The notes under the pieces were generated by a model. That model searched no databases. It saw nothing but the letters and a program-made list of their open reading frames with translations, and had not been told where the DNA came from. Of a DNA stretch of 64,000 nucleotides, positions 3-22,224 are shown in pieces. The position numbers were made by a program, and so were the translations under genes. The first letter of the stretch is position 1, and every line of letters begins with the position of its first letter. Source of the stretch: Candidatus Obscuribacterales bacterium (GTDB taxonomy: Bacteria; Cyanobacteriota; Vampirovibrionia; Obscuribacterales; Obscuribacteraceae); the NCBI GenBank assembly GCA_020050835.1, contig JAGVKB010000148.1, positions 1 to 64,000 of the forward strand. The letters are read 5' to 3'.

Positions 3-356
3 ACCAGCTATGTACCGCTGGCCTTAGAGGCGCAAAAGGAGTTGGTCGATTCGACCAAACGGCTGGTGGAATCGAGCGCGCGCTTGCTCGAGGAGAGATT
101 TGGCAAAGGCAACGTTCGATTTGAGGTGCTTGAGGGTTACATCAAAGACAAGATTCTGGAGCTAGCTCGAGAATGGCCGGCCGATCTGATTGTTTTGGGC
201 TCGCACGGGCGGCGAGGCTTTACCCGATTTCTGCTGGGCAGCGTATCGGAAGCGGTGGTGTCGCACGCACAGTGCTCGGTGGAGATTGTTAAGCTGCCGC
301 ATCCCGAAGGTCAAAAGAAAGAACCCGGCAAGACGCTGGTTGAAAAGCAGCATTGA
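3..356 (+). CDS. Universal stress protein (UspA family), 5' end outside window
   Basis: The reading frame is open from the left edge, so the start codon lies upstream of the window and only about the last 117 residues are seen. The C-terminal half carries the ATP-binding signature of UspA-type proteins, G-x2-G-x9-G-S, read here as [15 protein letters not shown], followed by the usual hydrophobic helix and a final strand (VEIVK). Family members are small cytoplasmic nucleotide-binding proteins linked to stress survival. A charged tail of about 18 residues (many K and E) follows the domain. Downstream lies a gap of about 450 bases. The family call is secure; the exact role is not predictable. 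Confidence 0.88.
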
Positions 357-428
357 CGGAAAGGCCTGAATCTCCTTAGCCTTCACTCAGTGTCAATTCG
401 TAGCCAAGGTGTAGCCTAGACCAGAAGA

Positions 429-548
429 CTATTCAGCTTCATCGGGCGGCTTTTCGAAAAACGCCTTATACGCTCCGAATGATCCACAAAGTAGAACCCA
501 GCACACCAAGATGGCGCAGAAGACGGCTGGATTTGTTTGGTCTGGCAT
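429..548 (-). CDS. Putative 39-residue single-span membrane protein
   Basis: A short frame on the minus strand begins ATG, with AAAGGGA placed seven bases upstream, and ends TAG. The product has a short polar start (MPDQTNP), one hydrophobic segment of about 20 residues containing three cysteines (VFCAILVCWVLLC), then GAYKAFFEKPPDEAE. That layout (short periplasmic or luminal side, one span, acidic tail) is typical of small membrane-complex subunits, but I do not recognise a family. It is the only convincing content of the gap between 357 and 807. Support is the ribosome binding site plus the membrane span; no homology is claimed. Confidence 0.42.
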   Translation of the reverse strand: MPDQTNPAVFCAILVCWVLLCGSFGAYKAFFEKPPDEAE

Positions 549-807
549 TTTGAGTCCCTTTCAATCCTGTAGAATCCATCGTGCTCGGTTGACAAGCAAG
601 CGTATCGCGGATTCGTTCTTCCCGGGCAAAGCTGGCCGGCACGAAGCAACTTTAAAAATTATAGCTAGAGTTGGACGAGCTGTGTTGTCATACTATGAAA
701 CTTGCTGCCAGAGCTGAAATCTTAACAACCCCTCAGATGCGGAAGTCAAGGTCTGAGCCTGTGTTATAAATTGTCAGGGTGCAAAGATTGTGAATTGGAG
801 TAATTGA

Positions 808-1722
808 GTGATGAAAGCTGCGAATGGGACATCAGTTTTAATAGCTGTGAGCCTGCTTCTTGCGGCGACTACTACGGCTTATGCCGGTCCGCAATCAGTG
901 CTGGATCCGTATCTGTACGTGCAGCCGCCCTCGGCCGCTAACAGTCGAATGGTGAAAGCGAAACCTGCCAAGCGAGTCAGCAAGGCAGCGAAGGCGCCAA
1001 AGCCAGTCAAGGAGCGCAGGCAAGAGCGCGCGGAAAGTGCGCTGGAGCCGGCGCCTGACAGTAGGCCTGCCAGTAAGACGGCGCTACGCAGCGAGCCTGC
1101 CGCCTCAGAAGATGACGGGTTGATGTCTGGTCCGAAAGAAGTTATGCACGGCATTGCCACTACCACTAAGGCTGCTGGTTCAGGGATAGTGAATGGCGGC
1201 AAGCGGGTCGGTGGCGGCATGATGAACGGCACTAAGTTTATGCGAGATGGTATAGCATCTGGTGCGAAGGCTGCCGGCCAGGGATTGAAGTCTGCTGGTG
1301 AAAAGATCAAAGACGGAACCGGAGCGGTCGGTGGGAAGTTAGCCGTCGCTCCAAAGGCGATCGGTCATGGATTGATGAGCACCGGCGAGAAGCTGAAGGA
1401 CGGCACTCAGGCCGTTGGCGGAAAGCTGGCCGAAGTACCGAAGGCAATCGGAGGCGGGCTCAAGGCCACTGGCGGCAAGGTAGTTGAAGGATCGCAAACT
1501 GTGGGCGGTAAGATGTCCGGCTTTCCCAAGGCGATCGGTCATGGACTTGCGGCAACCGCTACCAAGGTAAAAGACGGAACCGGCGGAGTTGGCAAGAAAA
1601 TAGCCGGGGTTCCGATGGCGATGACACGCAAGCTACTGGGACGCGGCGGCGGCGGGACAATTTCGGCCGAGAGCGCCGATGAAGCCGTAAAAGCGACTGC
1701 TCAAGCTGGTTCTCAGCAATAA
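808..1722 (+). CDS. Secreted protein with 29-residue Gly/Lys-rich tandem repeats
   Basis: Not a recognised family. The start is either GTG at 808 or ATG at 811; TTGGAG at 795-800 fits both. The first ~25 residues form a clean signal peptide ending TAYAG, so the product should be exported. Residues ~45-100 are basic and Ala/Pro/Lys-rich. From about residue 110 the protein is built of repeats of the pattern PKAIGHGL..TG.K..DGT..VGGK, three of them exactly 29 residues long, with more diverged copies in front. Spacing of Gly and Lys suggests amphipathic segments similar in style to LEA or apolipoprotein-like repeats. It may bind membranes, polymers or the cell wall, but this is only inferred from composition. 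Confidence 0.75.
   Translation: MMKAANGTSVLIAVSLLLAATTTAYAGPQSVLDPYLYVQPPSAANSRMVKAKPAKRVSKAAKAPKPVKERRQERAESALEPAPDSRPASKTALRSEPAASEDDGLMSGPKEVMHGIATTTKAAGSGIVNGGKRVGGGMMNGTKFMRDGIASGAKAAGQGLKSAGEKIKDGTGAVGGKLAVAPKAIGHGLMSTGEKLKDGTQAVGGKLAEVPKAIGGGLKATGGKVVEGSQTVGGKMSGFPKAIGHGLAATATKVKDGTGGVGKKIAGVPMAMTRKLLGRGGGGTISAESADEAVKATAQAGSQQ
1264..1611 (+). repeat. Four 87-bp coding tandem repeats
   Basis: Within the secreted repeat protein, units begin at 1351, 1438 and 1525, each starting with a CCN-AAG-GC codon run (Pro-Lys-Ala-Ile-Gly). A diverged unit lies at 1264-1350. Period is 87 bp, with no indels between the three good copies. The nucleotide copies differ at many positions, so the array is old or under protein-level selection and not a recent slippage product. 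Confidence 0.75.
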
Positions 1723-1779
1723 AAGCCGCATCCACCGCTGGGATGGGCGGACGACTTGTCTGCTGCGATCTCGGTCGGC

Positions 1780-2139
1780 TTATCGCGTGACGCTCTTTTC
1801 TCTTTCGACGCTTACTCCCACTACGGCCTGGTGTAGAGTGAGATAGCTCTTGCCATCGAATATGGTGGCGTCAAATTCGCGCGAATGAGCCCGCTTGAAA
1901 GCCTCGCTGTGAACCCAGCCTTTGAAGGACTCTTCCGAATCCCAGCGAGTGAGTACTTGATACTCGTTGTCGGTTTGCTCTGGTTTGCCGCCCATTAGCA
2001 TGCGCGTTCCCGGCTTTAGCAGATCCAGGCTGTGGAACCCGGGTTGGTCTTCGACCGCGCGCTCCCGCTCCTGGAACATCCTTTCGAAATCGGTTTCACG
2101 CCCTTTTCTAACCGGTATGTGATTGATTGAGATAAACAT
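1780..2139 (-). CDS. Antibiotic-biosynthesis-monooxygenase / HmoA-like protein
   Basis: A 119-residue protein of the dimeric alpha-beta barrel (ABM) superfamily, close in pattern to IsdG/HmoA heme-degrading monooxygenases. It opens FISINHIPV, with the Asn near residue 6 expected in that family. It continues with a GF.SLDLL strand and then TRWDSEESFKGWVHSEAFKRAH, which holds the conserved Trp and a downstream His. A short tail (VSVEREKSVTR) follows the domain. Such proteins act in the cytoplasm on heme or on aromatic substrates; which one applies here cannot be told. It is followed by the oppositely oriented repeat-protein gene. It lies downstream of speD on the same strand, separated by a strong hairpin, so it is probably transcribed separately. 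Confidence 0.8.
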   Translation of the reverse strand: MFISINHIPVRKGRETDFERMFQERERAVEDQPGFHSLDLLKPGTRMLMGGKPEQTDNEYQVLTRWDSEESFKGWVHSEAFKRAHSREFDATIFDGKSYLTLHQAVVGVSVEREKSVTR

Positions 2140-2169
2140 TGATGTGCAGCCTCTGAATGGGTGAAGTTG

Positions 2170-2203
2170 GAAGCCGTGGTATCACGGATGATACCACGGC
2201 TTC
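2170..2203 (-). terminator. Perfect 15-bp hairpin after speD
   Basis: GAAGCCGTGGTATCA at 2170-2184 pairs perfectly with 2189-2203 across a four-base loop (CGGA on the plus strand). It begins 17 bases after the speD stop codon. No U-tract follows on either side, so it may be a terminator of unusual form or an mRNA-stabilising hairpin. Confidence 0.6.
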
Positions 2204-2220
2204 GCCGGACTCTTAATCGA

Positions 2221-2646
2221 TCACAGAGACGAGGCCAGTTTGAGTCGTTCGGATTCGATGATCCGCCCGGCTCTGCCCGCGCTGCGAGGAAACTCTCTGC
2301 CGCGCATCAACACTTGCTTTTCATAGCTGGTCGGTTCGAAGTTCTCGCTGAAGTATTTGATTGCTTCATCGATATCGAATTCGCGACAAGAGAAGATATC
2401 CAGTGTTACGAACCCTTTATCCGGGAACGTGTGAATGGATATGTGCGACTCGGCGATCAGTACGACACCGCTTACGCCCCAATCATCCGGAACAGCGCCA
2501 TGATACGTGAAAACGTATGGTGGCATGATTTTTGTCATATCCAGCTGTTCGGGATAACTATCCAGAACTTTGCTTAAGAGATTCAAGTCTGCCAATTTGG
2601 CCTTGGGACAGCCGTAGGCTTCTAAAATGAGATGTGGTCCAAACAT
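2221..2646 (-). CDS. speD: S-adenosylmethionine decarboxylase proenzyme
   Basis: Makes decarboxylated SAM, the aminopropyl donor for spermidine. The start ATG at 2646 is set by AAGGGGGAAG just upstream and by family length (141 residues). The open frame continues 39 codons further up but shows no family match there. Hallmarks are the self-cleavage site E66-S67 in AESHISIHTFP, where Ser67 becomes the pyruvoyl cofactor, with His72 and Cys87 (DIFSC) as the processing and catalytic residues. This is the short prokaryotic class (Thermotoga/Bacillus type). No dedicated speE is adjacent; a distant membrane protein at 50942 has only a spermidine-synthase-like domain. A perfect hairpin follows the stop codon. 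Confidence 0.95.
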   Translation of the reverse strand: MFGPHLILEAYGCPKAKLADLNLLSKVLDSYPEQLDMTKIMPPYVFTYHGAVPDDWGVSGVVLIAESHISIHTFPDKGFVTLDIFSCREFDIDEAIKYFSENFEPTSYEKQVLMRGREFPRSAGRAGRIIESERLKLASSL

Positions 2647-3173
2647 GTTTCTTCCCCCTTTCGCGCTCGTTGTTCGGACGAGTGCTTTGTTGTGGTTGCC
2701 GAAGAGATTGACAAAATACGCATGTAGACTGGATTTCAGTAATGTGTATTTTGAGGGGTACACGAAACGCTTACCTTGAGCCCAGTTTTGGACGCAGCCG
2801 TTCTGGAAGTTGGGCGTTGTGTTGGTGCGAACTAAACCTCCTTGTTACTACTTTGAGAATGAGTAATTTTAACAGAGCTGGCAGATATTACACTGTGAGT
2901 CCATTAAACTTACATGGATTGATTATACATGTCCCAGCCAAAGCGTGAAGCACTGCGGAGAGGACACTGTCTGCAAGCCGTGGCGAGCAGTTCAGAAAAC
3001 TTTCTGACGCCGGTTGTCCGGAATTGTTTCCGGTTGAACTTGTGTTGCAGTCTGGTCAGTAACAGACTTGCTTGAAACTATTCTTGGCAGCTGGACTGGT
3101 TGTACAGGCTCAAGCCGAGAGCTTCGTGATGTTTGCGCGGCGAGGCTGGTGCACCGGGAGGTGAGGCTCTCAC
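2647..3173. other. Intergenic region upstream of speD
   Basis: About 530 bases with no convincing gene. It should hold the speD promoter and leader. On the minus strand an AAGGAGG motif near 2840 is followed in the speD frame by an open stretch with no ATG, GTG or TTG until 2763, so it cannot be assigned to a gene. A small inverted repeat, CCGGAA-TTGT-TTCCGG, lies near 3020. Confidence 0.5.
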
Positions 3174-4289
3174 TCAAGGATTGGCATAGGTAATGCGATA
3201 GATGCAACCGGCTTTGTCATCGGAGATAAGCAGCGAACCATCGGGAGCAATCAAGATGTCTACTGGCCGCCCCCAGACTTTGCCTCCCTCCAACCAACCG
3301 TCCGCGAAGACTTCGTACTTAGGCTCTTCGCCCTTGTTTCGACGGACGAGCGAAATCCGATATCCCAGTGGTGTACTCCTATTCCAGGAGCCGTGTTCGC
3401 AGATGAATATCTGATTCTTATAAGCGGGCGGGAACATCTTGCCAGTATAGAATCGCATGCCGAGCGCCGCTACGTGCGGGCCCAGCTCGACGGTTGCCGG
3501 CGTGGTCTTGGCGGCGCCGCCCTTACTGCCGAAATCTGGGTCGACGATGTCCTTACCATGTCGATATGGATAGCCGAAGTGCATACCGGAAGTCGGTGCA
3601 TGGTTCAGCTCGTCGGGCGGCCGATTTTCGCCGAGCCAATCACGACCGTTGTCAGTAAACCAGAGCTCCTTGGTCTGCGGATCCCAGTCGAATCCGACCG
3701 TGTTGCGAATGCCGCGCGCAAATATCTCGGCGCCGGAGCCGTCCGCATTCATTCTGGTCAGGCTGGCGAAAGGATCTCCGTGGTCGCAAATATTGCAAGG
3801 AGCTCCAATTGGAACATATAAAAGATCATCGGGACCAAAGCGAATGTACTTCCAGCCGTGATGCACGCTGGATGGCAGCTTGGTTGTCACTACTACCGGC
3901 TTGGGCGGATTGGCGAGGTCTGCTTCGACATCGTCGAAACGCAGAATCCGATTTACTTCGGCGACATAGAGCGAGCCGTTATGTAAATCCACTCCATTTG
4001 GCATGAACAAGTTGCGGGCAATCGTGATGACTTCGTCTCCACGGTAGTCTTTGTTTCGGTCTGGAATCGCATAAACACTGCCGTTGTCTTCACGTGTCCC
4101 GACGAACAAGGTGCGATTAGGGCTCAATACCATCGAGCGCGCATTTGGAACGTTATCGGCATAGATACTTATATGAAATCCCGGTGGCAGCTTGATCTTG
4201 TCCAGCTGAACCTCTTGCCGCCCTGAACAGCCAGAAGGCAAACATATAGAGGCTGTAGCAAGCAGGATTAAAGTCAAGAGTCTTTTCAT
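3174..4289 (-). CDS. Lipoprotein of the glucose/sorbosone (PQQ-type) dehydrogenase family
   Basis: The 371-residue product begins with a lipoprotein signal: MKRLLTLILLATASICLPSGC, lipobox LPSGC, Cys21. It should be anchored at the outer face of a membrane. The rest is a six-bladed beta-propeller of the soluble glucose dehydrogenase/L-sorbosone dehydrogenase type: LPPGFHISIYADNVPNAR, VHHGWKYIRFGPDDLLYVPIG, FARGIRNTVGFDWDP and the ELWFTDNGRDWLGENRPPDELN stretch near the active site. A CNICDHG pair of cysteines sits close to the putative cofactor pocket. Family members oxidise sugars with PQQ; the substrate here is unknown and some members have lost catalysis. It is transcribed alone. Confidence 0.85.
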   Translation of the reverse strand: MKRLLTLILLATASICLPSGCSGRQEVQLDKIKLPPGFHISIYADNVPNARSMVLSPNRTLFVGTREDNGSVYAIPDRNKDYRGDEVITIARNLFMPNGVDLHNGSLYVAEVNRILRFDDVEADLANPPKPVVVTTKLPSSVHHGWKYIRFGPDDLLYVPIGAPCNICDHGDPFASLTRMNADGSGAEIFARGIRNTVGFDWDPQTKELWFTDNGRDWLGENRPPDELNHAPTSGMHFGYPYRHGKDIVDPDFGSKGGAAKTTPATVELGPHVAALGMRFYTGKMFPPAYKNQIFICEHGSWNRSTPLGYRISLVRRNKGEEPKYEVFADGWLEGGKVWGRPVDILIAPDGSLLISDDKAGCIYRITYANP

Positions 4290-4402: not shown

Positions 4403-7400
4403 CTAAACCGACACTTTGCTGATCAGCACATTGATGCCGGGGCGGAATGCTCCATTGATCGCGGCTACGAGCTCTTCTGATGCCGCAACCCAGTACTGGC
4501 TGCCTACCAGTATCGTCTGGCTTTGATTCCCTTGCGGGAAATGTAGAAGCACCGGGTCATCGCCTTTGTGCGCGTTCAAGATGTCTTTCAGTCGATGCAG
4601 ATCAGAGAAGCTTTGCTCTTCGGTCAGAAAGACATTTACCAGCGAAGCGTCCGCGATCCGGCGGACATTGTTGGCGAGGATTGACATGTCGTCGTCATTC
4701 TTCTTGATCTTTCCTTTGATCAAGAGCAGCGATCTTGGGATGAGCACTTCTTGCGGCAATTTTTCCAGCGTCTCGCTGTAGATGACGATTTCACCCTTGC
4801 CTGTCAGATCCTCGAGATGAACGATGCACAATAGCTTATTCTGCTTGGTAAGCTTCTTCTCGACAGCTGTAGCAAGCCCGCCCAGGATGACATTGGTGCC
4901 GTCGGATGCCTCGCGCACCTCTTTCATGGAGTGGGTAGTCAGCCAGCGAAGCCGATTCGAGACCTTTTTTAGAGGATGGCTGGTTACATAGAAGCCGAGC
5001 AGCTCATGCTCCATGGTTTGAAGCTCGGCTTCCGGAAACTCAGTGGGGTCCCCTTTTAGCTGTTGCAGAACCGGCGCGGTGGCAACGGACAGTCCTGCGA
5101 ACAGGTTCATCTGTCCGGACGCGAGCTCCACCTGCCTGCGGCTTGAGGACTCGACCAGGGAGTCGATGTTTTCCAGCGCTTGTCTGCGAGTAACATTTAG
5201 ACCCAGGCAGGCTCCGCACTTGATCAACGCTTCCAGGGCCCGTTTGTTGACGACTCTCAGGTCGATTCGGGAGATGAAGTCATGCAAAGTCTCGAACTTG
5301 CCGTCCTGTTCGCGCTTGTTCACTATCTCCTGAATAGCTGATTCGCCGACGTTTTTGACGGCCGACAATCCAAAGCGAATGGCGCCACCGTCGGCGGTGA
5401 AGTCCGGTCCTGATACATTTATGTCCGGCGGCAGTATGTCGATGCTCATCGCCTGGCATTCAGCGATGTAGCCTTGCACTTTGTCTTGCTCGCCGCTGAC
5501 GCTGGACAGAAGAGCGGTCATATATTCGACCGGAAAGTGCGTTTTCAGATAGGCGGTCTGATAAGTGACAAATGAATACGCCTGGCTGTGAGATTTATTG
5601 AAGCAGTATTCAGCAAACTGCACCATCATGTCGAAGAGCTGATCGGAGATCTCTTTGCTGATACCGTTCTTGGCGCAGCCGCCTACGAACAGCTCGCGCT
5701 GCTTCTCCATCTCCTCGGGCTTTTTCTTTCCCATCGCTCGGCGCAAGAGGTCGGCTTGGCCCAGGCTATAGCCGGCCAATTGCTGAGCGATCTGCATGAC
5801 CTGTTCTTGATAGACTATCTGTCCGTAAGTATCCTGCAGGATCGGTGCCAGGTGTGGCGTTAGATAGGTAATCTTGGTGGTGCCATGCTTGCAGTCGATG
5901 AATTTGTCGATCATCCCGGTGTCCAGCGGACCGGGGCGATAGAGCGCGATCAAGGCTGAAAGGTCTTCCATGCAGGACGGTTTCATGTCCCGCGCGACCT
6001 GTCTCATCCCGGAAGAAGTTTCTAATTGAAAGATGCCGGCGAGGTCTCCATTGCTTATTGTCTGGTAGACCTTCTCGTCATCAAGAGGCAGTTTGTCTGG
6101 ATTGATCTCGATGCCGCGTGTCTGTTTGATGATTTTGACTGCTTTGTCGACCATCGTCAGGTTGCGCAGTCCGAGAAAGTCCATTTTGACCAACCCGACG
6201 TAGCCGAGATCTTCCATGTAAAACTGCGTGATCACGGCGCCGTCATTGTTGCGCTGCACCGGCACGATCTCTTCGAGCGGCACATCCGAGATGACCACTC
6301 CGGCGGCGTGCATACCGAAGGTTTTGTTGACTCCTTCCAGCCTGCGGGCGAGATCGATTACCTCTTTGGCTTCGGCGCTGGTCTGGTAGACCTTTTTGAA
6401 TTCCGGGTGTTCGGTGGTCATCTCTTCCAACGGCGTTGGTTTGCCGCGCACCACCGGCACCATTTTTGCCAATTTATTGGATTCGGAAAATGGAAATTCC
6501 AAGACACGCGCGACGTCTTTTAGCACGGCTTTACTGGTCATCCGGTTGAAGGTGATGATCTGAGCAACCTTATCCTGCCCGTACTTCTCGTAGCAATATT
6601 TGATGATTTCGTCGCGCCGCTCGATGCAGAAGTCGGTGTCGATATCGGGCATCGATCGACGCTCCGGGTTGAGAAATCGTTCGAACAGCAGGTTGTATCG
6701 AATCGGATCGATGTTTGTAATGCCCAGGCAATATGCCACGATGCTCCCGGCCGCCGATCCCCGACCGGGACCGACTGGAATGCCTCTGCTGCGTGCGAAA
6801 CGAATGAAGTCCCAAGTGATCAAAAAGTACGAAGGAAACTTCATGTCCTCGATCACTTTTAGTTCTTCATGGACGCGCGCTTCGATTTCCGGAGTAATCT
6901 CCGGATACCGCTCTCTCAAGCCATCCCAAACTATTTGATTGAGATAGCTCTCCGGTGTGTGTCCGGCCGGAACGGGAAAATGGGGCAATCTGGGATCACC
7001 GGCGAGTTTGATTGAATCGATGCGGTCGGCTATTTCAAGCGTGCACTTGATGGATTCTTCAATCTGCTCGTTGTCCAGGTGGTCCCGAAACAGATAGGCC
7101 ATCTCGTCGCCATTCTTGACGTATTCCCAACCGCTGAATTTCATGCGATTCGCTTCGGTCACGACCTTACCCATCTGAATGCAAAGCAGCGCATCATGTG
7201 CTCGCCCGTCGCATTTATTCGTAAAGTGGCTGTCGTTGGTGGCGCAAAGCTTGAGCTCCAGCTCCTTGGCAATCTGCACCAGATGCCGATTGACCTTTCT
7301 GTCTTCTGGATAGCCGTGGTCCTGGATTTCGATAAAGTAATTGTCTCCAAGGACCTCTTTGTACCAGGAGGCAGTTTCCTTGGCCTTTTCGTAGTTGTCG

Positions 7401-14539: not shown

Positions 14540-16432
14540 TTATCTCGCCGGCGGTGGTACGAAGATGGGGCGATCGGTCGGCTTGGTGCCGGCGGCTGGC
14601 TTGCTTCCGCTCTTGTCGTCAGGCGACGGAGTGAAGATGGGAATACCCGGTACGCCTGGTTTCGAGTCTCCGGTCGGAGCTGTCTTGATTGGCGGCGGGG
14701 TGAAGGTTGGAGGCTGTAGTTTCTCCCCTTTCGGATGGACCGGAGGCGGTATGAACAGTGGCGGCTCCAGCTTTTCGTTGCTAGGTGGTTTGGGCGGCAT
14801 GAAGGTTGGCGGAGGCAAGAACGTAATCGGAGTTGAGGGACTTGCGGTTTCCTTGCTTGGTGTGAATTGGACTTGCGGATAAGCTGCATACAGCCGGGCG
14901 ATCGTCGCTCGGTCTCGCTTGGATGGCAGCCCGTTTTGCTGTGAGTTATTGCGAAAGTACATAACGTCATTGATGACTTTGGAGTGTCCCAATCCGAGAG
15001 CATGACCAACTTCGTGCACGCAGGTTGATGCAACTTCTCCCAATTCCATTCCATCTTTAGGATTGAATGGGTCTACCGTGCGAATTTGAATTGTTGCGTC
15101 CGCGATTTGACCGTATGTGTCTGACTCGAATTGAGTGAGTCCAACCGGTTGAGCGTTTGGATGTGATGAAGTCGCATCGAGCGGATGGTTCGTCCATTCT
15201 ACGCGGATGTCTGCTTTCGCTTTGTCCCTGGTCAGGGTGTAACTGAGCTTTCTTCCGGAAGCTTCGCACCAGGCGTCGAGCGATCGAGGGATGCAAGCCG
15301 GAAAGCTTGAAAGATAGCCGGGAACACCTTTCCCGGACTCGATAAATACTTTAAGCGGTAGTTTCTTTCGCGGCCACTTCTGTCCACCTTCCAGGTCGAG
15401 ATAATCAGGAAGCTTGTTGACCGGATCGTTGAATTGAGCTTTGTCGTCTTCGATTCCTTTTATGCGGGAGCTTGCGTCGGCTCGTTGCTGGGGAGCGGAT
15501 TCCATGGCGATGTAGCGCTTTATCCATTGAATCGCCTCATCGAATCTGGTTAAGTCTTCATAGGCTATACCAATGTTGTAGATCGTTTCTTTCTGGTCTG
15601 GCTCCAATTGCAAGGCTCTCTTGCCTTCTTCAATGGCTGCTTGCGGATTACCGGTATGGCGTAATACGAACGAAAGGTTGGCATGGATGCTTGCTGAATA
15701 GGGTGTGGGATCGAGCGCAGCTGCGCGGTCCAGAAAGCGGCGTGCATCCTGGTTGTGTCCTGACTGCAGGCACTTGATGCCAGCTGTCAGGCTGTTATAT
15801 GCAGCGGTTTCTCGAATGAACTTTTGAGTGCTTGAATCCGCGCCACTTTGGCTGGAAGCTCTGGCATACTGCTTAAGGTAGGAAAGTGCCTGACTGTACT
15901 TGTCCAGATCAAAGTAAATTTGAGCCATACAATAGAGAGCATCCGAGTAATTCGGGTTGAACCGGAGTGACGTCTCTGCTTCTGCAATTGCCTGGTTATA
16001 GTTCTTCAGCGCCTTGTAACACCTGGCGAGTTGCAGGTGAACGTAGGATGAATACGATGTTCGGTCGTTTTGAGCCGCCTTAAGCAGAACATCTCGAGCT
16101 TGTGCGAATGCGCCTGAGTTCAGGAGTGAATCCGCTTGATTGCAGAGTCTGAAGGTATTTGTTTCTACTTCGAAGCTTTTGAATAGCCTGGCAGCTTGTC
16201 CGAATGGACCTCCCTGGCAAGCTGCCGGCAAGCCCAATCCTAGAAAGCTCGTATAGGCAAGGATTGCGGCGATCGGAAGAAGGCTTCGATGCAATCTGCC
16301 TGTGCGCGTAACTCGGTGGGCGGCTGCCAGAGCCGCCCCTACAAATGTTTTCACACAATTGGACTGAGTTGCTCTTGCCGGCATTCGATTACTGTACTTG
16401 GGCAATCTTGCGAACCAGAAACGATATTCCAC
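14540..16432 (-). CDS. TPR-repeat matrixin-like metalloprotease with proline-rich tail
   Basis: 630 residues if read from GTG at 16432; an ATG 16 codons later is an alternative. A basic start and hydrophobic segment (LLPIAAILAYTSFLGLGLPA, residues ~50-72) point to export. Residues ~80-330 hold at least five TPR units. Then comes a zincin domain with the matrixin signature HEVGHALGLGHS (zinc ligands His473, His477, His483) and a Met-turn (DVMYF). Residues ~521-630 are a proline-rich tail with repeated PPTFxPP/PPLFIPPP motifs. TPRs probably recruit a partner while the protease acts outside the cytoplasm. I know of no characterised protein with this exact order. Confidence 0.88.
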   Translation of the reverse strand: MEYRFWFARLPKYSNRMPARATQSNCVKTFVGAALAAAHRVTRTGRLHRSLLPIAAILAYTSFLGLGLPAACQGGPFGQAARLFKSFEVETNTFRLCNQADSLLNSGAFAQARDVLLKAAQNDRTSYSSYVHLQLARCYKALKNYNQAIAEAETSLRFNPNYSDALYCMAQIYFDLDKYSQALSYLKQYARASSQSGADSSTQKFIRETAAYNSLTAGIKCLQSGHNQDARRFLDRAAALDPTPYSASIHANLSFVLRHTGNPQAAIEEGKRALQLEPDQKETIYNIGIAYEDLTRFDEAIQWIKRYIAMESAPQQRADASSRIKGIEDDKAQFNDPVNKLPDYLDLEGGQKWPRKKLPLKVFIESGKGVPGYLSSFPACIPRSLDAWCEASGRKLSYTLTRDKAKADIRVEWTNHPLDATSSHPNAQPVGLTQFESDTYGQIADATIQIRTVDPFNPKDGMELGEVASTCVHEVGHALGLGHSKVINDVMYFRNNSQQNGLPSKRDRATIARLYAAYPQVQFTPSKETASPSTPITFLPPPTFMPPKPPSNEKLEPPLFIPPPVHPKGEKLQPPTFTPPPIKTAPTGDSKPGVPGIPIFTPSPDDKSGSKPAAGTKPTDRPIFVPPPAR

Positions 16433-17710: not shown

Positions 17711-17739
17711 TTGACAGATACACTGTTTGTGTTTAAGAT
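17711..17739 (+). promoter_or_regulatory. Sigma-70-type promoter of the J-domain/VWA/PurA-like operon
   Basis: TTGACA at 17711-17716, exactly 17 bases, then TAAGAT at 17734-17739. This is a near-consensus housekeeping promoter and the best one I see in the window. It lies about 220 bases before the J-domain gene; the leader between 17740 and 17957 has no gene of its own that I can support. Confidence 0.7.
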
Positions 17740-17957
17740 AGTAAACGTAAGGATAACGATTAAAGGTTGAGGGTAAAAGCGTTGATAGAACGCATGCGAT
17801 TCGTAGTCGCTAACCAACCAGGCAGCAACCGGAACGGGCCCGGCGGATAGGCGTTCGGTACATATCGTCAATTTGCTGGGCACTGCTGCTGGTGTCATAG
17901 CCGGGTGCAACCGGTTACTCGCTTGACCGTCCCTGTCGTGGGCGGTGGAGGTGTGAA

Positions 17958-19031
17958 ATGCGTGTGTTGGATCAATTAACGGCAGACAGGCTCTTGGCGG
18001 TAGCCTCACCGGAGTCACTGTTCACTTGCTCGCTCCATGAGGCTAAGGCGGAGTACCGTCAGTTGGTTCGAATCTGGCATCCGGATTCCAATCATCAATC
18101 TATTGCTCCGAAAGTGTTCTCGCATATTGTTGATCTCTACGATCGAGCAAGGCGAAAGCTGCTTGATGGCAGTTGGAAAGAGCCTGCTGAGAAGATTGAG
18201 CAAGAGCTGCCTGGACTCAAGAGATTTCGTTGTGTCGATGGTTCCATCAAATCGATCGTCTTCGAAAGGTCCAGGGTGTTCGAACTTGGTCGCAGCTACA
18301 TCAGCGATCACTACGTAGTCTATGAAGTTTTAAGCGAGTACCAAGATCTATTCAGGGTCGGTCGTTTGCGTACTCAAAATTTGCGATTTCTAGACGGGCA
18401 AATGGCGGTCGAAATGGCTTCCTCCCTTCCTCAAATCGTCGATGTATTCAAGACCGCTGATTCCAGTGTGCTAGTCGTTAGAAAAACACCCGATCAGCTT
18501 TTACTGGCGGATGTGCTTGTACATTGTCGAGGACGAATTGTGCCGATCGAGCATGTCGGCTGGATTTTGAATGTTCTGTACAATTTAAGTTGCTATTTTG
18601 AATGGTTAGGAATTGCGCACAATGCAATCTCGGTGGATACTGTTTTTGTCTCGCCGCTCAGGCACTCGGGAATGCTGCTGGGAGGCTGGTGGTATGCGGC
18701 TCCGATTGGCGCCGAGCTGGTGGCGCTCAACGACCAGTCCTTGGCGGTGATTCCGGAAGACATCGTCCGGGCAAGGCGGGCAGATGGGCGCGCAGATCTT
18801 GAATCAATCAAAGCAGTCGGACGCGAGTTGTTGGGCGATCTCGCCGGCGCCAGCTTGTTGCTGGACGAAAGTCTGCCTAGAGTCTTAGCGGAGTGGTTGT
18901 ACTTGCCGTCAAGCGGCAGCGCTACTCGAGATTATGCCGATTGGAAATATGAAGTTCTCGAGTCGGCTTTCGGTCAACCTAGTTTTGTCAACTGGAATTT
19001 GGACAGAAAAGCTCTATACAAGGAGGGTTAA
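17958..19031 (+). CDS. J-domain protein fused to a pseudokinase-like domain
   Basis: The start is fixed by GGAGGTG five bases upstream. Residues ~18-70 form a J domain: helix II AEYRQLVRIW, the HPD motif at 41-43, then VFSHIVDLYDRARRKLL. It should recruit and activate an Hsp70. Residues ~95-350 read like a protein kinase fold without catalytic residues. The catalytic loop position is HNAISVDTVFV (221-231) with Ala where the catalytic Asp should be. The DFG position reads GGW (242-244), and the C-lobe has DLESIKAVGRELL and a DYADWKYEVLESAFG closing helix. First gene of a three-gene operon; its own end carries the ribosome binding site of the VWA gene. The J domain is firm, the kinase fold is a pattern-level inference. 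Confidence 0.7.
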   Translation: MRVLDQLTADRLLAVASPESLFTCSLHEAKAEYRQLVRIWHPDSNHQSIAPKVFSHIVDLYDRARRKLLDGSWKEPAEKIEQELPGLKRFRCVDGSIKSIVFERSRVFELGRSYISDHYVVYEVLSEYQDLFRVGRLRTQNLRFLDGQMAVEMASSLPQIVDVFKTADSSVLVVRKTPDQLLLADVLVHCRGRIVPIEHVGWILNVLYNLSCYFEWLGIAHNAISVDTVFVSPLRHSGMLLGGWWYAAPIGAELVALNDQSLAVIPEDIVRARRADGRADLESIKAVGRELLGDLAGASLLLDESLPRVLAEWLYLPSSGSATRDYADWKYEVLESAFGQPSFVNWNLDRKALYKEG

Positions 19032-19033
19032 TC

Positions 19034-19951
19034 ATGGGTACTTCGAGATGGAGCCCGGCAGACTGGGCCGCTTATGTCGCCTCGACAGGAAGCAAGTCTG
19101 CAGCAGAGCTGTTTCGCGGCTCGTCCATTCACAAAGATCTCAATCCCAAGCAGATCAAAGTTCGAGAGTCTTGTGATTCGGATTTCAATCCGCTTTCAAC
19201 GCCGATAATCGTGGCGGTCGATGAAACCGGCTCGATGGGAATGCTGGCTGATACATTGATCCGGCATGGATTGGGAATTCTGATTGAAGAGATCTACGAT
19301 CGCAAACCGGTCACGGATCCTCATCTCATGTGTATGGCCTTCGGCGACGCTTGGTTTGACACGGCGCCTCTGCAGGTAACTCAATTCGAGACCGATATTA
19401 GGCTGGTCGATCAGCTGAGCAAGTTCTACATCGAGGGCAATGGTGGAGGAAACTCCTTTGAGAGTTACAACCTGCCCTGGTATTTCGCTGCGACCCGTAC
19501 CAGATGCGATGCGATGTTGAAGCGCAACAAGAAGGGTTACCTGTTTACAGTCGGTGACGAGCCACCACCACCAATGCTCTTGGCCAGGCATGTGCAGAAG
19601 TTTCTCGGTGGTGGCTTGCAAGAGGATATTTCAACTGCTGATCTCCTGGCGATGACGACTAAGTCGTGGGAAGTCTTTCACATAATGATCGAGGAAGGCT
19701 GCCACTACCGGTCCTTTCCGAAGCAAACCTCGGAGGCCTGGAGAAAGTTATTAGGACAACGGGCGATGTTGTTGAGCGATCACACCAAACTGGCGGAATT
19801 GATAGTTTCGACAGTTGAGGTCAATCAGGGCGCTGACGTAGCTCGTGTCGCCAGCAGTTGGTCCGGCGACACCGCGCTGGTGGTTAGGAAATCGTTGAAG
19901 GCCATGTCGCCAGTAGTTGTTGCCGGTGGCAGAGGTGTAACTCGTCTCTAG
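19034..19951 (+). CDS. VWA-domain protein
   Basis: 305 residues, with AAGGAGG in the end of the previous gene and the ATG two bases after that gene's stop, so translation is coupled. The metal-ion-dependent adhesion site reads D63-E-T-G-S67-M-G (canonical DxSxS with Thr in the middle position). Further metal-site elements are GGGNSFESY and the TVGDEPPPP strand end. It lacks a signal peptide, so it acts in the cytoplasm. Cytoplasmic VWA proteins usually act as metal-dependent adaptors for ATPases or chaperones. Here the partner is plausibly the J-domain/pseudokinase protein or the PurA-like enzyme encoded next to it. Confidence 0.8.
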   Translation: MGTSRWSPADWAAYVASTGSKSAAELFRGSSIHKDLNPKQIKVRESCDSDFNPLSTPIIVAVDETGSMGMLADTLIRHGLGILIEEIYDRKPVTDPHLMCMAFGDAWFDTAPLQVTQFETDIRLVDQLSKFYIEGNGGGNSFESYNLPWYFAATRTRCDAMLKRNKKGYLFTVGDEPPPPMLLARHVQKFLGGGLQEDISTADLLAMTTKSWEVFHIMIEEGCHYRSFPKQTSEAWRKLLGQRAMLLSDHTKLAELIVSTVEVNQGADVARVASSWSGDTALVVRKSLKAMSPVVVAGGRGVTRL

Positions 19952-20030
19952 CGGACAAGAACTGCCGACTACTTAGTTTTAGTTCGTTGGTTGGAGAGTC
20001 GCGAAAGTATCAATTTGGAGGTGAGCGATC

Positions 20031-21170
20031 ATGAGAACTGGCGCAGTCATCATCGGTGCCAATTACGGTGACGAGGGTAAGGGCCTGATGACGGATTATC
20101 TCGCCAGCAACAATCCAACGGATTCTCTGGTGGTCAGATTCAATGGCGGCGCTCAAGCCGGGCATACGGTTGTGCTTCCGGATGGGCGTCGCCATATTTT
20201 TAGCCATATCGGTTCGGGAGCGTTTGCCGGCTGTCCCACCTTCTTGAGCCGGTTCTTTATCGTCAATCCGCTCTTGTTTATGCGCGAATACAAGCAACTC
20301 CGCGCTCTGGGACTTGTTCCGGTGTTGACGGTAGACGCCGAAGCGTTTGTCACCACTCCCTATGATATGTTCATCAATCAACTTGTGGAAAGCAGGCGAG
20401 GCAAAGGACGACACGGCAGTTGCGGTGCCGGAATCAATGAGACAGTCGTGCGTTGTCTGCGTTCCGATTCGATAAGTACAGTGACCGGAGATACGACGAA
20501 CGCGAGTCAATTTCTAGTCCGACTGAGTGAGATTGAGCGAAATTGGTTCCCGGCGCGCTTGCGAGAGCACGGCATCGATCCCGAATCGCTCGAAGTTCGA
20601 TCTTTCTTGGAAAGTTCTGGACAGATTCGCGCGGCTTTCATGCGCGATGTCGATGATTTCTTGGCGGTCTCGACAGTCTCCTGCCGCTATCCGGAAGCCG
20701 AGCGCGTCATCTTCGAGGGTGCGCAGGGATTGATGCTTGACCAGGGTCGTATCGATCTATGGCCTCATTTGACGCGCTCCAGCACCGGTCTAGCCAATGT
20801 AGTCTATCTTGCTCCGCGCTTCGGACTGGATGCTCTGAGAGTAACCTATGTCAGCCGAACATATATCACCAGGCATGGTGCTGGCCCGCTACCGGGCGAA
20901 AATGATTGGTCCTTTGCAGATGGAACCAATGTGCGCAACGAATTCCAAGGAAAACTGCGTTTTGCGCCATTGGATTGGCATATGATGCGGCGGTCAATCG
21001 CTTTAGATCTGGCGCAGGCAAGATTTTCGTTTCCCGGAATCGACGCGACGCTCGCGCTGACCTGCGCGGATCAGCTGGATGTCCCCAGTGTGGTGCGGGT
21101 TGGTATTCCGCTCAGTCATGTAAGCTACGGACCGACCAGATTGGACGTGAAAACAATCTGCCGTGTATGA
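20031..21170 (+). CDS. Short adenylosuccinate-synthetase-like enzyme
   Basis: A PurA-fold ligase of 379 residues, shorter than housekeeping bacterial PurA (about 430). GGAGGTG precedes the ATG at ideal spacing. Residues needed for GTP/IMP chemistry are kept: GDEGKG (Asp14, Lys17), the AGHT loop with His45, GSCGAGINET (129-138), FEGAQGLMLD (228-237) and RHGAGPLP (281-288). The usual aspartate-loop TGRxRRCGWxD is replaced by FQGKLRFAPLD, and WPHLTRSSTGLANV replaces the usual YPYVTSSNTTAGG. Because Asp14 is kept it does not look like phage PurZ. It is likely a specialised paralogue acting with the VWA and J-domain proteins, not the purine pathway enzyme; this needs a check for a second purA in the genome. 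Confidence 0.82.
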   Translation: MRTGAVIIGANYGDEGKGLMTDYLASNNPTDSLVVRFNGGAQAGHTVVLPDGRRHIFSHIGSGAFAGCPTFLSRFFIVNPLLFMREYKQLRALGLVPVLTVDAEAFVTTPYDMFINQLVESRRGKGRHGSCGAGINETVVRCLRSDSISTVTGDTTNASQFLVRLSEIERNWFPARLREHGIDPESLEVRSFLESSGQIRAAFMRDVDDFLAVSTVSCRYPEAERVIFEGAQGLMLDQGRIDLWPHLTRSSTGLANVVYLAPRFGLDALRVTYVSRTYITRHGAGPLPGENDWSFADGTNVRNEFQGKLRFAPLDWHMMRRSIALDLAQARFSFPGIDATLALTCADQLDVPSVVRVGIPLSHVSYGPTRLDVKTICRV

Positions 21171-21267: not shown

Positions 21268-22020
21268 CTACATTGCCAACAACTCTTCCCGGAGCTGTTC
21301 CATTGGAGTTGTCAGAGATTTTTCGAAGATCTCGTAGCGTAATCGACCCATTCCCAGAAGATCGATCCGAAATACGTCCCAATCAGAATTTCCAATATCG
21401 CCAAATTTTAGAGTGGCACCAACAGCAGTGCTAGCCCGTTGCGCTATCTTTTCGGTCGAAGTCGCATTGTAGACGTTTTTTAGAAGCTCTTGCGAATTAG
21501 GTCCCTCACATATCTTGTCGATGATTGCAAAGCAGCCGGCGAAAAATTCGTCCAGCCATCGGGCAGTGTCTGTTTTGACCTGATTTTGCTCGAGGTCAGT
21601 CATGTAAATGTGCGCGCAGGCAAGCTGCTTTATGGCAGTGTTGGCAGCCTCGGGAGCAAGCTTGACTCTGGCGCTTTGCTGGACGGTAGCACCAAATTCG
21701 CCGGACCGACAGCGATGGAAGTGGCGAAACAGGTACTCCCGGCTCAGAAATCTAATTGCATGTGCGAAGTAAATCGCGCGCCACTGGAATGCATCAGAGC
21801 CTTCGGGCTGGGAGTCGCGAGTGTCGAACACTGGCGGAGCCTGAATTTCCAACGGTTTGGCAAATAAGTCTTCGGCCGTTCCGAAGACCGAACTTATGCC
21901 ACTGGAGGTGCCGCTCTTAAGATTCTGGAGATATAGCTTGTATCCCTTCGCTCCGGCGTCGAAGACAAAGAGATGATCAGGCGACGAGTTCTTCGGATTG
22001 TTGTGTTCTTCCTCGACCAT
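21268..22020 (-). CDS. Hypothetical protein (250 aa)
   Basis: Not recognised. ATG at 22020 is chosen; a TTG 10 codons upstream overlaps a -10-like TATAC region and is less likely. There is no signal peptide or membrane span. Residues 10-40 contain HLFVFDAGAKGYKLYLQNL, a plausible beta hairpin. The middle is helical and rich in Ala, Arg and His (FLSREYLFRHFHRCRSGEF), and the C-terminal third is again mixed. It converges on the PurA-like gene across about 100 bases. Whether it belongs to the same system is not shown, since it is on the other strand. Confidence 0.6.
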   Translation of the reverse strand: MVEEEHNNPKNSSPDHLFVFDAGAKGYKLYLQNLKSGTSSGISSVFGTAEDLFAKPLEIQAPPVFDTRDSQPEGSDAFQWRAIYFAHAIRFLSREYLFRHFHRCRSGEFGATVQQSARVKLAPEAANTAIKQLACAHIYMTDLEQNQVKTDTARWLDEFFAGCFAIIDKICEGPNSQELLKNVYNATSTEKIAQRASTAVGATLKFGDIGNSDWDVFRIDLLGMGRLRYEIFEKSLTTPMEQLREELLAM

Positions 22021-22224
22021 CGACTGGCTTCTACCGTGGCGATTCAACAATGTATAATCCAGTATATACCCGGCACAAGCGATCTCCGTGACCCGAACTT
22101 GCCATACTTGCGGCCCAGTTTTGACCGGGATCAGGGCTAGTATGGACTGTAGCAGGTACGTACCGAGTCCAGTCGCCCTTCAGGTTAGTATGGTTCGGCG
22201 ACATTAACTAGGAGGATGGTCATT

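Follow-up and report, generated by a model that had tools for sequence, protein, structure and literature searches.

PurA, adenylosuccinate synthetase, carries out a chemistry that works on free nucleotides, and PurZ is the 2-aminoadenylosuccinate synthetase of Z-genome phages. A vWA protein, a PP2C phosphatase and a kinase make up the TerY-P triad. Conflict systems centred on ADP-ribosylglycohydrolase (ARG), with a theme of nicotinamide adenine dinucleotide (NAD) and ADP-ribose (ADPr), are described by Iyer et al. 2022 (PMC9503650); they have vWA chaperones and regulators of the Nudix or WYL type. Here we treat a three-gene operon that touches on each of these, in DNA of Candidatus Obscuribacterales bacterium (GCA_020050835.1, contig JAGVKB010000148.1, positions 1–64,000; this full stretch is called the window). 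On the forward strand, gene 1 (17958–19031, 357 amino acids) encodes a J domain and a pseudokinase, gene 2 (19034–19951, 305 amino acids) a VWA-fold protein of the phrog_2971 family, and gene 3 (20031–21170, 379 amino acids) a short PurA-like ligase of the phrog_1211 family. The stop codon of gene 1 lies 2 nt from the ATG of gene 2, the gap between genes 2 and 3 is 79 nt, and ribosome sites of the GGAGG type precede all three, which confirms the gene layout given by the original prediction for this DNA.

The trio lacks defining features of PurA, PurZ, active kinases and ARG-centred ADPr systems, and among open-licence literature we found no paper naming the three-gene set. It looks as if an enzyme of central purine metabolism had lost its amino-acid loop on being recruited to work with a VWA protein, in many cases under an NAD-type regulator. 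The lost loop, the invariant glycine of the VWA protein and the NrtR link are not in the original prediction. Our reading, to which we give a probability of about one half, is that the trio is a mobile accessory module of bacteria and phages in which a PurA-type enzyme joins an activated purine nucleotide to an amine other than aspartate. It draws on gene order, predicted folds, conservation, adjacency, host–virus exchange and linkage to NrtR genes, which are direct results, while the catalytic steps are all inferred. The reaction, once known, would reveal a nucleotide or a protein modification not described before, or else a new phage–host lever.

Pairing of the VWA and ligase genes

Scanning genomes and viral contigs with aligned VWA proteins gave at least 556 stretches with a relative in a collection limited to a single genome for each species, and 352 from viral contigs. 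The best 80 bacterial and best 80 viral ones, ranked by similarity to the VWA protein, were taken as loci. Six of the seven seed sequences came from loci picked for both genes or for a PurA-like match; the search patterns themselves held the VWA protein only. A PurA-like gene followed the VWA gene on the same strand within 2.6 kb in 155 of the 160 loci (78/80 bacterial, 77/80 viral). Four of the five exceptions are cut: three loci (L025, L037, L124) stop at most about 50 bases from the VWA gene, and L092 has a PurA-like start at its cut end. The J-pseudokinase was present in 99/160 loci (58/80 bacterial, 41/80 viral). These counts make the VWA–ligase pair the core, with the J-pseudokinase as a frequent companion.

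Pairwise similarities within the three families rise and fall together, with correlations of 0.76 for VWA and PurA-like (n = 134), 0.80 for VWA and J-kinase (n = 79) and 0.87 for PurA-like and J-kinase (n = 83); none of 999 permutations reached the observed value in any of the three pairs. The original prediction had proposed a unit outside housekeeping metabolism, and this holds: the three genes are neighbours in many other genomes, and the genome has a separate purA. No fusions among the three proteins occurred among the open reading frames of the loci. When 168 neighbourhoods were clustered, with no gene-by-gene PADLOC scan of the neighbours, no further recurrent or defence-island neighbour stood out beyond the trio and a Nudix gene. 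The three window proteins matched no PADLOC model at E ≤ 1.

A divergent second version of the trio (J/pseudokinase, VWA and PurA-like) is found at 13–4062 of locus L184 in a relative, genome G010. Its VWA protein has 475 amino acids with an extra C-terminal part, and its PurA-like protein 465 amino acids with WQGQFR in the loop.

The ligase and its possible acceptor

The gene 3 product matches the Pfam adenylosuccinate synthetase family with 143.5 bits, and its PDB matches are adenylosuccinate synthetases too. Structure models were made for genes 1 and 2, and the assignment of gene 3 rests on its sequence, which bears out the prediction of a nucleotide ligase of the PurA family. For conservation we used 163 VWA, 155 PurA-like and 97 J-kinase rows, related to one another, with identical and short rows left out; the alignments for the Pfam and PDB scans omitted 4 of 70 (A4) and 7 of 60 (A6) selected rows.

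With PurA the module ligase shares the sequence family, the GDEGKG and AGHT motifs, and the Gln and Thr of the nucleotide site. GDEGKG is at residues 13–18 (20067–20084, forward strand), and its Asp14 and Lys17 are kept in 154/154 readable members, as is His45 of AGHT in 153/154; by their roles in E. coli PurA, we take this Asp and His to be the catalytic residues. The differences lie elsewhere. The module ligase has His for Val in TRVG, T-C/H-x-D for TKxD, a shorter C-terminal region, and a short Q-G-x-x-R for TTGRxRR, and it misses the equivalog cut-offs. His282 (TRHG; 20874–20876, forward strand), at a position where the canonical PurA of the host has Val, is found in 155/155 members. The shortened loop, Q306-G-x-x-R310 (20946–20960, forward strand; Q in 154/155, R in 151/155), reads Q-G-K-L-R in the window copy where the host PurA has TTGRPRRC. 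In PurA the TTGRxRR loop binds aspartate, and TTGR/K was seen in 0/155 PurA-like members.

That gene 3 is an ordinary adenylosuccinate synthetase isozyme beside two unrelated genes is highly improbable. Its Pfam and PDB matches would fit an isozyme, which is contradicted by a full-length canonical purA elsewhere, by a best NCBIfam equivalog score of 115.9 bits against a cut-off of 402, by the lost aspartate loop and by the conserved neighbours. The second purA, which the original prediction had proposed to look for, is present on contig C52 with a score of 589.5 bits, where the window copy reaches 142.8. Two PF00709 matches likewise occur in each of the 7 relatives that have the VWA protein, although in one (G034) both are fragments near contig ends. 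The window copy is therefore not the housekeeping enzyme, a role that the separate purA, the low equivalog score and the lost loop rule out. PurZ was considered too, as PHROGs names phrog_1211 ‘2-aminooxy adenylosuccinate synthetase’ and both are phage-borne PurA relatives. Unlike PurZ, the module ligase is paired with a VWA gene and occurs also in bacterial chromosomes; a Z-genome enzyme was ruled out by this context and by a score for NF038379 of 45 bits against a cut-off of 300.

The pattern of residues is that of an active enzyme with an altered amine-side pocket, and a nucleotide-type substrate is consistent with the conserved ligase motifs. The ligase would retain the first half-reaction of PurA, in which a nucleoside triphosphate is spent to phosphorylate a purine nucleotide at its 6-oxygen. 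Having lost the loop that binds aspartate, it would turn in the second step to an amine or acceptor other than free aspartate.

An indication of what that acceptor might be comes from the VWA protein, which would act as a dedicated partner that presents the acceptor, binds it or is the acceptor itself. Pfam VWA models gave no match among 67 members (the gene 2 protein and 66 relatives). The predicted model of gene 2 (pLDDT 90, from an alignment of 62 sequences) has a VWA fold, matching integrin beta I domains with Z 16.2 and a root-mean-square deviation (rmsd) of 2.8 over 190 residues. The motif of the metal ion-dependent adhesion site (MIDAS), D63-x-T65-G-S67 (19220–19234, forward strand), is conserved (D 162, T 161 and S 163 of 163 members); the model and these residues agree with the MIDAS-bearing VWA protein of the original prediction.

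The glycine at position 2 (codon 19037–19039, forward strand) is invariant, found in all 159 readable members; the other 4 of the 163 VWA rows were without an N-terminus. Beyond it the N-terminus is variable, the next position conserved at 85% or more being Pro38. Of 158 starts checked, 154 are ATG and 152 have a Shine-Dalgarno-like string; one start, uncertain for that reason, reads ACG. In the PurA-like family conservation first reaches 85% at residue 7, and in the J-kinase family at residue 13. Bacterial methionine aminopeptidase, by removing the initiator methionine, would bare the glycine. An isolated invariant glycine, with a PurA-type enzyme lacking the amino-acid loop encoded next to it, suggests the glycine amine as acceptor. 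In this more specific form of our reading, which we regard as doubtful, the PurA-like enzyme would be a protein ligase. It would activate a 6-oxopurine nucleotide, which might derive from NAD or ADP-ribose by deamination, at the C6 oxygen and join it to the free N-terminal glycine of the VWA protein, with the J-pseudokinase and DnaK presenting the tail. The product would be a VWA protein carrying a nucleotide through the purine N6, and, if true, a new kind of nucleotide–protein conjugation.

The chaperone gene and the NrtR link

Gene 1 combines a J domain (residues ~9–70) with a pseudokinase (~85–349). Its match to Pfam DnaJ (E 3.5e-4) falls below the curated cut-off of Pfam, and 53/71 members of the family reach E ≤ 0.01. 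The HPD motif (residues 41–43; 18078–18086, forward strand) is conserved, with H in 93, P in 89 and D in 93 of 95 readable members. In the AlphaFold model (pLDDT 96, from an alignment of 69 sequences), J-domain helices at 26–40 and 50–70 flank HPD and a kinase fold follows. This predicted fold is bilobal; its VIA match to the mycobacterial PknA/PknB entry 6b2q_C, with which many other kinases tie, has Z 20.3 and an rmsd of 3.4 over 222 residues. An active kinase is not what the family shows: at positions assigned by eye, Asp is present in 13/97 members for HRD and in 1/94 readable members for DFG, in place of which the window has GGW (residues 242–244; 18681–18689, forward strand; G 87/94 readable, G 93/97, W 92/97). 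As HPD is kept and the two Asp are mostly gone, the product is a J-domain pseudokinase; the motif, the model and the lost positions thus support the earlier call of a J domain fused to a kinase-like fold without catalytic residues. Hsp70 recruitment is consistent with the conserved motifs. The J-pseudokinase would bring DnaK to assemble or remodel the VWA–ligase pair and would itself phosphorylate nothing. Like the TerY-P triad, the operon joins a vWA protein to a kinase-fold protein; unlike it, the kinase fold is a pseudokinase fused to a J domain and a PurA-like ligase gene takes the third place, though no search was aimed at PP2C.

An NrtR-like gene (a Nudix domain with the NrtR winged helix) adjoins the operon in 52 of the 80 bacterial loci, on the opposite strand in 44 and on the same strand in 8. 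These counts come from a profile of our own, run over all frames, and 8 of the 80 loci have less than 2.6 kb upstream. An apparent extra neighbour (cluster 8, six loci) was set aside when, in two Massilia loci (L038, L040), it proved to be antisense to the NrtR gene and to overlap it, and it was this overlap that led to the recount over all frames. For the NrtR gene of L034, Pfam gave PF21906 (NrtR_WHD) at 62.2 bits (cut-off 27, E 5.2e-17) and NUDIX at 32.2 (cut-off 21.1). Loci with this link come from Pseudomonadota, Bacillota, Acidobacteriota, Actinomycetota and Thermodesulfobacteriota, and on Tsukamurella and Rhodococcus plasmids NrtR is the fourth gene of the operon. NrtR proteins are said in PMC9503650 to sense ADP-ribose. 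In many bacteria, then, an NrtR-type sensor of ADP-ribose-like ligands may switch the operon and link it to NAD/ADP-ribose status. The only NrtR_WHD match of the present genome is on contig C17, and with no NrtR gene adjoining the operon this step does not apply directly here; the profile found none in the nearest relatives of the window locus either (L012–L016, L025).

Between the NrtR gene and the operon, several Rhizobiales loci (L066, L077–L081, L083) have inverted repeats resembling ACTTGCAAA...TTTGCAAGT. They are the best repeat of each locus, taken with no background, and other groups differ. We regard these repeats as a candidate operator in Rhizobiales and claim none for the window.

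A Nudix-HTH regulator, a vWA protein and a proposed NAD/ADPr theme are shared with the ARG-centred systems as described in PMC9503650. ADP-ribosylglycohydrolase was not beside the trio in the window, and both matches in the genome are on other contigs. None of seven records with the trio or pair had one over the cut-off, and the one just under it is ~97 kb from the trio. With no ADP-ribosylglycohydrolase near the trio, the defining feature of those systems is absent. The words PurA, adenylosuccinate and DnaJ do not occur in the main text of PMC9503650.

The NAD connection also bears on an alternative that is possible, if on the unlikely side: the ligase would use a free amino acid or ammonia to make a small product, either a purine nucleotide modified at N6 or a dinucleotide like NAD, which would serve as a signal, an antimetabolite or a repair product. 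The VWA protein and J-pseudokinase would then be assembly chaperones only. Free nucleotides are the general substrate of PurA chemistry, and the tie of NrtR to NAD metabolism would suit such a product. So would the NadM-Nudix, NAMPT or NADAR-like genes within ~8 kb in 10/80 viral loci (NadM-Nudix and NAMPT confirmed on one example each, NADAR named by eye), a count that has no background rate for large phages. This alternative leaves unexplained why the VWA protein is as constant as the enzyme and why its Gly2 is invariant.

Several observations weigh against our reading of the module. Among the 160 loci, L166 has no PurA-like gene in 3.3 kb. Outside them, loci L010 and L011 of the first viral scan have a VWA gene (split over two frames in L011) and, within the stretch covered, no PurA-like match, and Rhodovulum plasmid L183 has J-pseudokinase, VWA and NrtR genes and again no PurA-like match in the stretch covered. 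The J-pseudokinase was not found in 22/80 bacterial and 39/80 viral loci, and chaperone recruitment is therefore not essential to the module. The correlated similarities can be explained by shared descent alone. NrtR was not found by the profile in 28/80 bacterial loci, in the 80 viral loci or in the window, and an NrtR-family factor is reported (PMC4666351) as a regulator of L-arabinose use. Finally, loss of the loop could mean another mode of aspartate binding or a dead enzyme, of which the strict conservation of the remaining ligase residues argues against decay.

Hosts, phages and surrounding genes

Close to the source genome the VWA protein is scattered. It was found in 8 of 60 genomes of relatives, the genome itself included (8/36 in the same family, 0/24 outside it), and in 2 of 292 genomes of a phylum sample, again including its own. 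As far as the loci reach, the six related ones (L012–L016, L025) have no neighbour gene in common with the window except the trio.

Members of the trio are carried by Vibrio phage Va1, Rhizobium phage RHph_Y65 and Mycobacterium phage MoMoMixon, in which genes 256, 257 and 259 are J-kinase, VWA and PurA-like. Mycobacteriophage records label single module genes ‘PurA-like’ or ‘kinase’, annotations that now gain a testable meaning. Allorhizobium, Acetobacter, Tsukamurella and Rhodococcus have plasmids with all three genes. A quick tree of 152 PurA-like proteins with SH-aLRT support needs at least 13 changes of the host/virus label, 6 of these forced by well-supported branches. As most viral rows come from contigs only predicted to be viral, some could be prophage or host and a few labels could be mistaken. 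The module has apparently crossed between cells and viruses on several occasions. The suggestion of phage defence in the original prediction is left unsupported by this, the module being also in many phage or predicted viral contigs. Present in phages and exchanged between hosts and viruses, it could serve either side.

Phage carriage would also suit a helper of virion assembly or takeover in large phages, later domesticated by bacteria, with the VWA protein and J domain as peptide chaperones for proteins of phage or host and the ligase ancillary. Besides the Vibrio, Rhizobium and Mycobacterium phages, this idea can point to the near-identical contigs L092 and L093, where genes for a T4-type neck and sheath stabiliser come after the VWA gene and ahead of the PurA-like one, to the few loci that hold VWA without the ligase, and to a jumbo-phage review that proposes DnaJ proteins and a MoxR–vWA pair as assembly chaperones (PMC7824862). 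We consider it improbable, because active-site residues of the ligase are strictly conserved, many bacterial copies have a regulator of their own, and the surroundings of the bacterial copies brought out no phage gene that recurs.

Upstream of the operon, the window has the string TTGACA-17-TAAGAT (17711–17739, forward strand; 10 of 12 consensus bases), which stops 218 nt before the start codon of gene 1. The original prediction took it for a near-consensus promoter; the string is there, and its weak point is that such matches occur in this DNA at the chance rate (3 observed, 3.3 expected). On the reverse strand, the gene at 14540–16432 encodes a TPR protein that includes a metallopeptidase domain of the matrixin (M10) type, and a 260-residue frame without a Pfam family match runs convergent with the operon at 21268–22050.

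Some phage loci without the J-pseudokinase have a conserved Met-rich protein (~220–300 amino acids) encoded directly upstream of the VWA gene. It was counted in 7 of the 39 such viral loci, and further in L003 and L004 and, by eye, in L008 and L185; examples are L003 6252–6962, L004 5753–6541 and L157 7267–7977. Two examples checked had no PHROG match and one checked had no Pfam match. In L185 (genome G174, a gut relative), 4455–7226 holds the Met-rich gene, the VWA gene and a PurA-like frame without the usual N-terminal motif. Macro-like and anaerobic reductase-like genes are nearby on that contig, which by eye looks phage-derived.

On the Allorhizobium plasmid L006 (10408–16906), AAA ATPase, DUF5682 and DUF4132 genes come after the trio and may form a separate system. 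In the IMG/VR contig L141 (3403–5922), an 840-residue PurA-like frame has, by eye, an intein-like insertion right after the GH of AGHT. Clustering of the viral neighbourhoods brought out Thg1-like (L104, L105, L151, L152, L165), TROVE/Ro60-like (L003, L123, L131, L160, L161) and RNA-ligase genes (L106, L108, L111, L148), and confirmed one example of each kind; together they hint that large phages have a region for RNA repair here.

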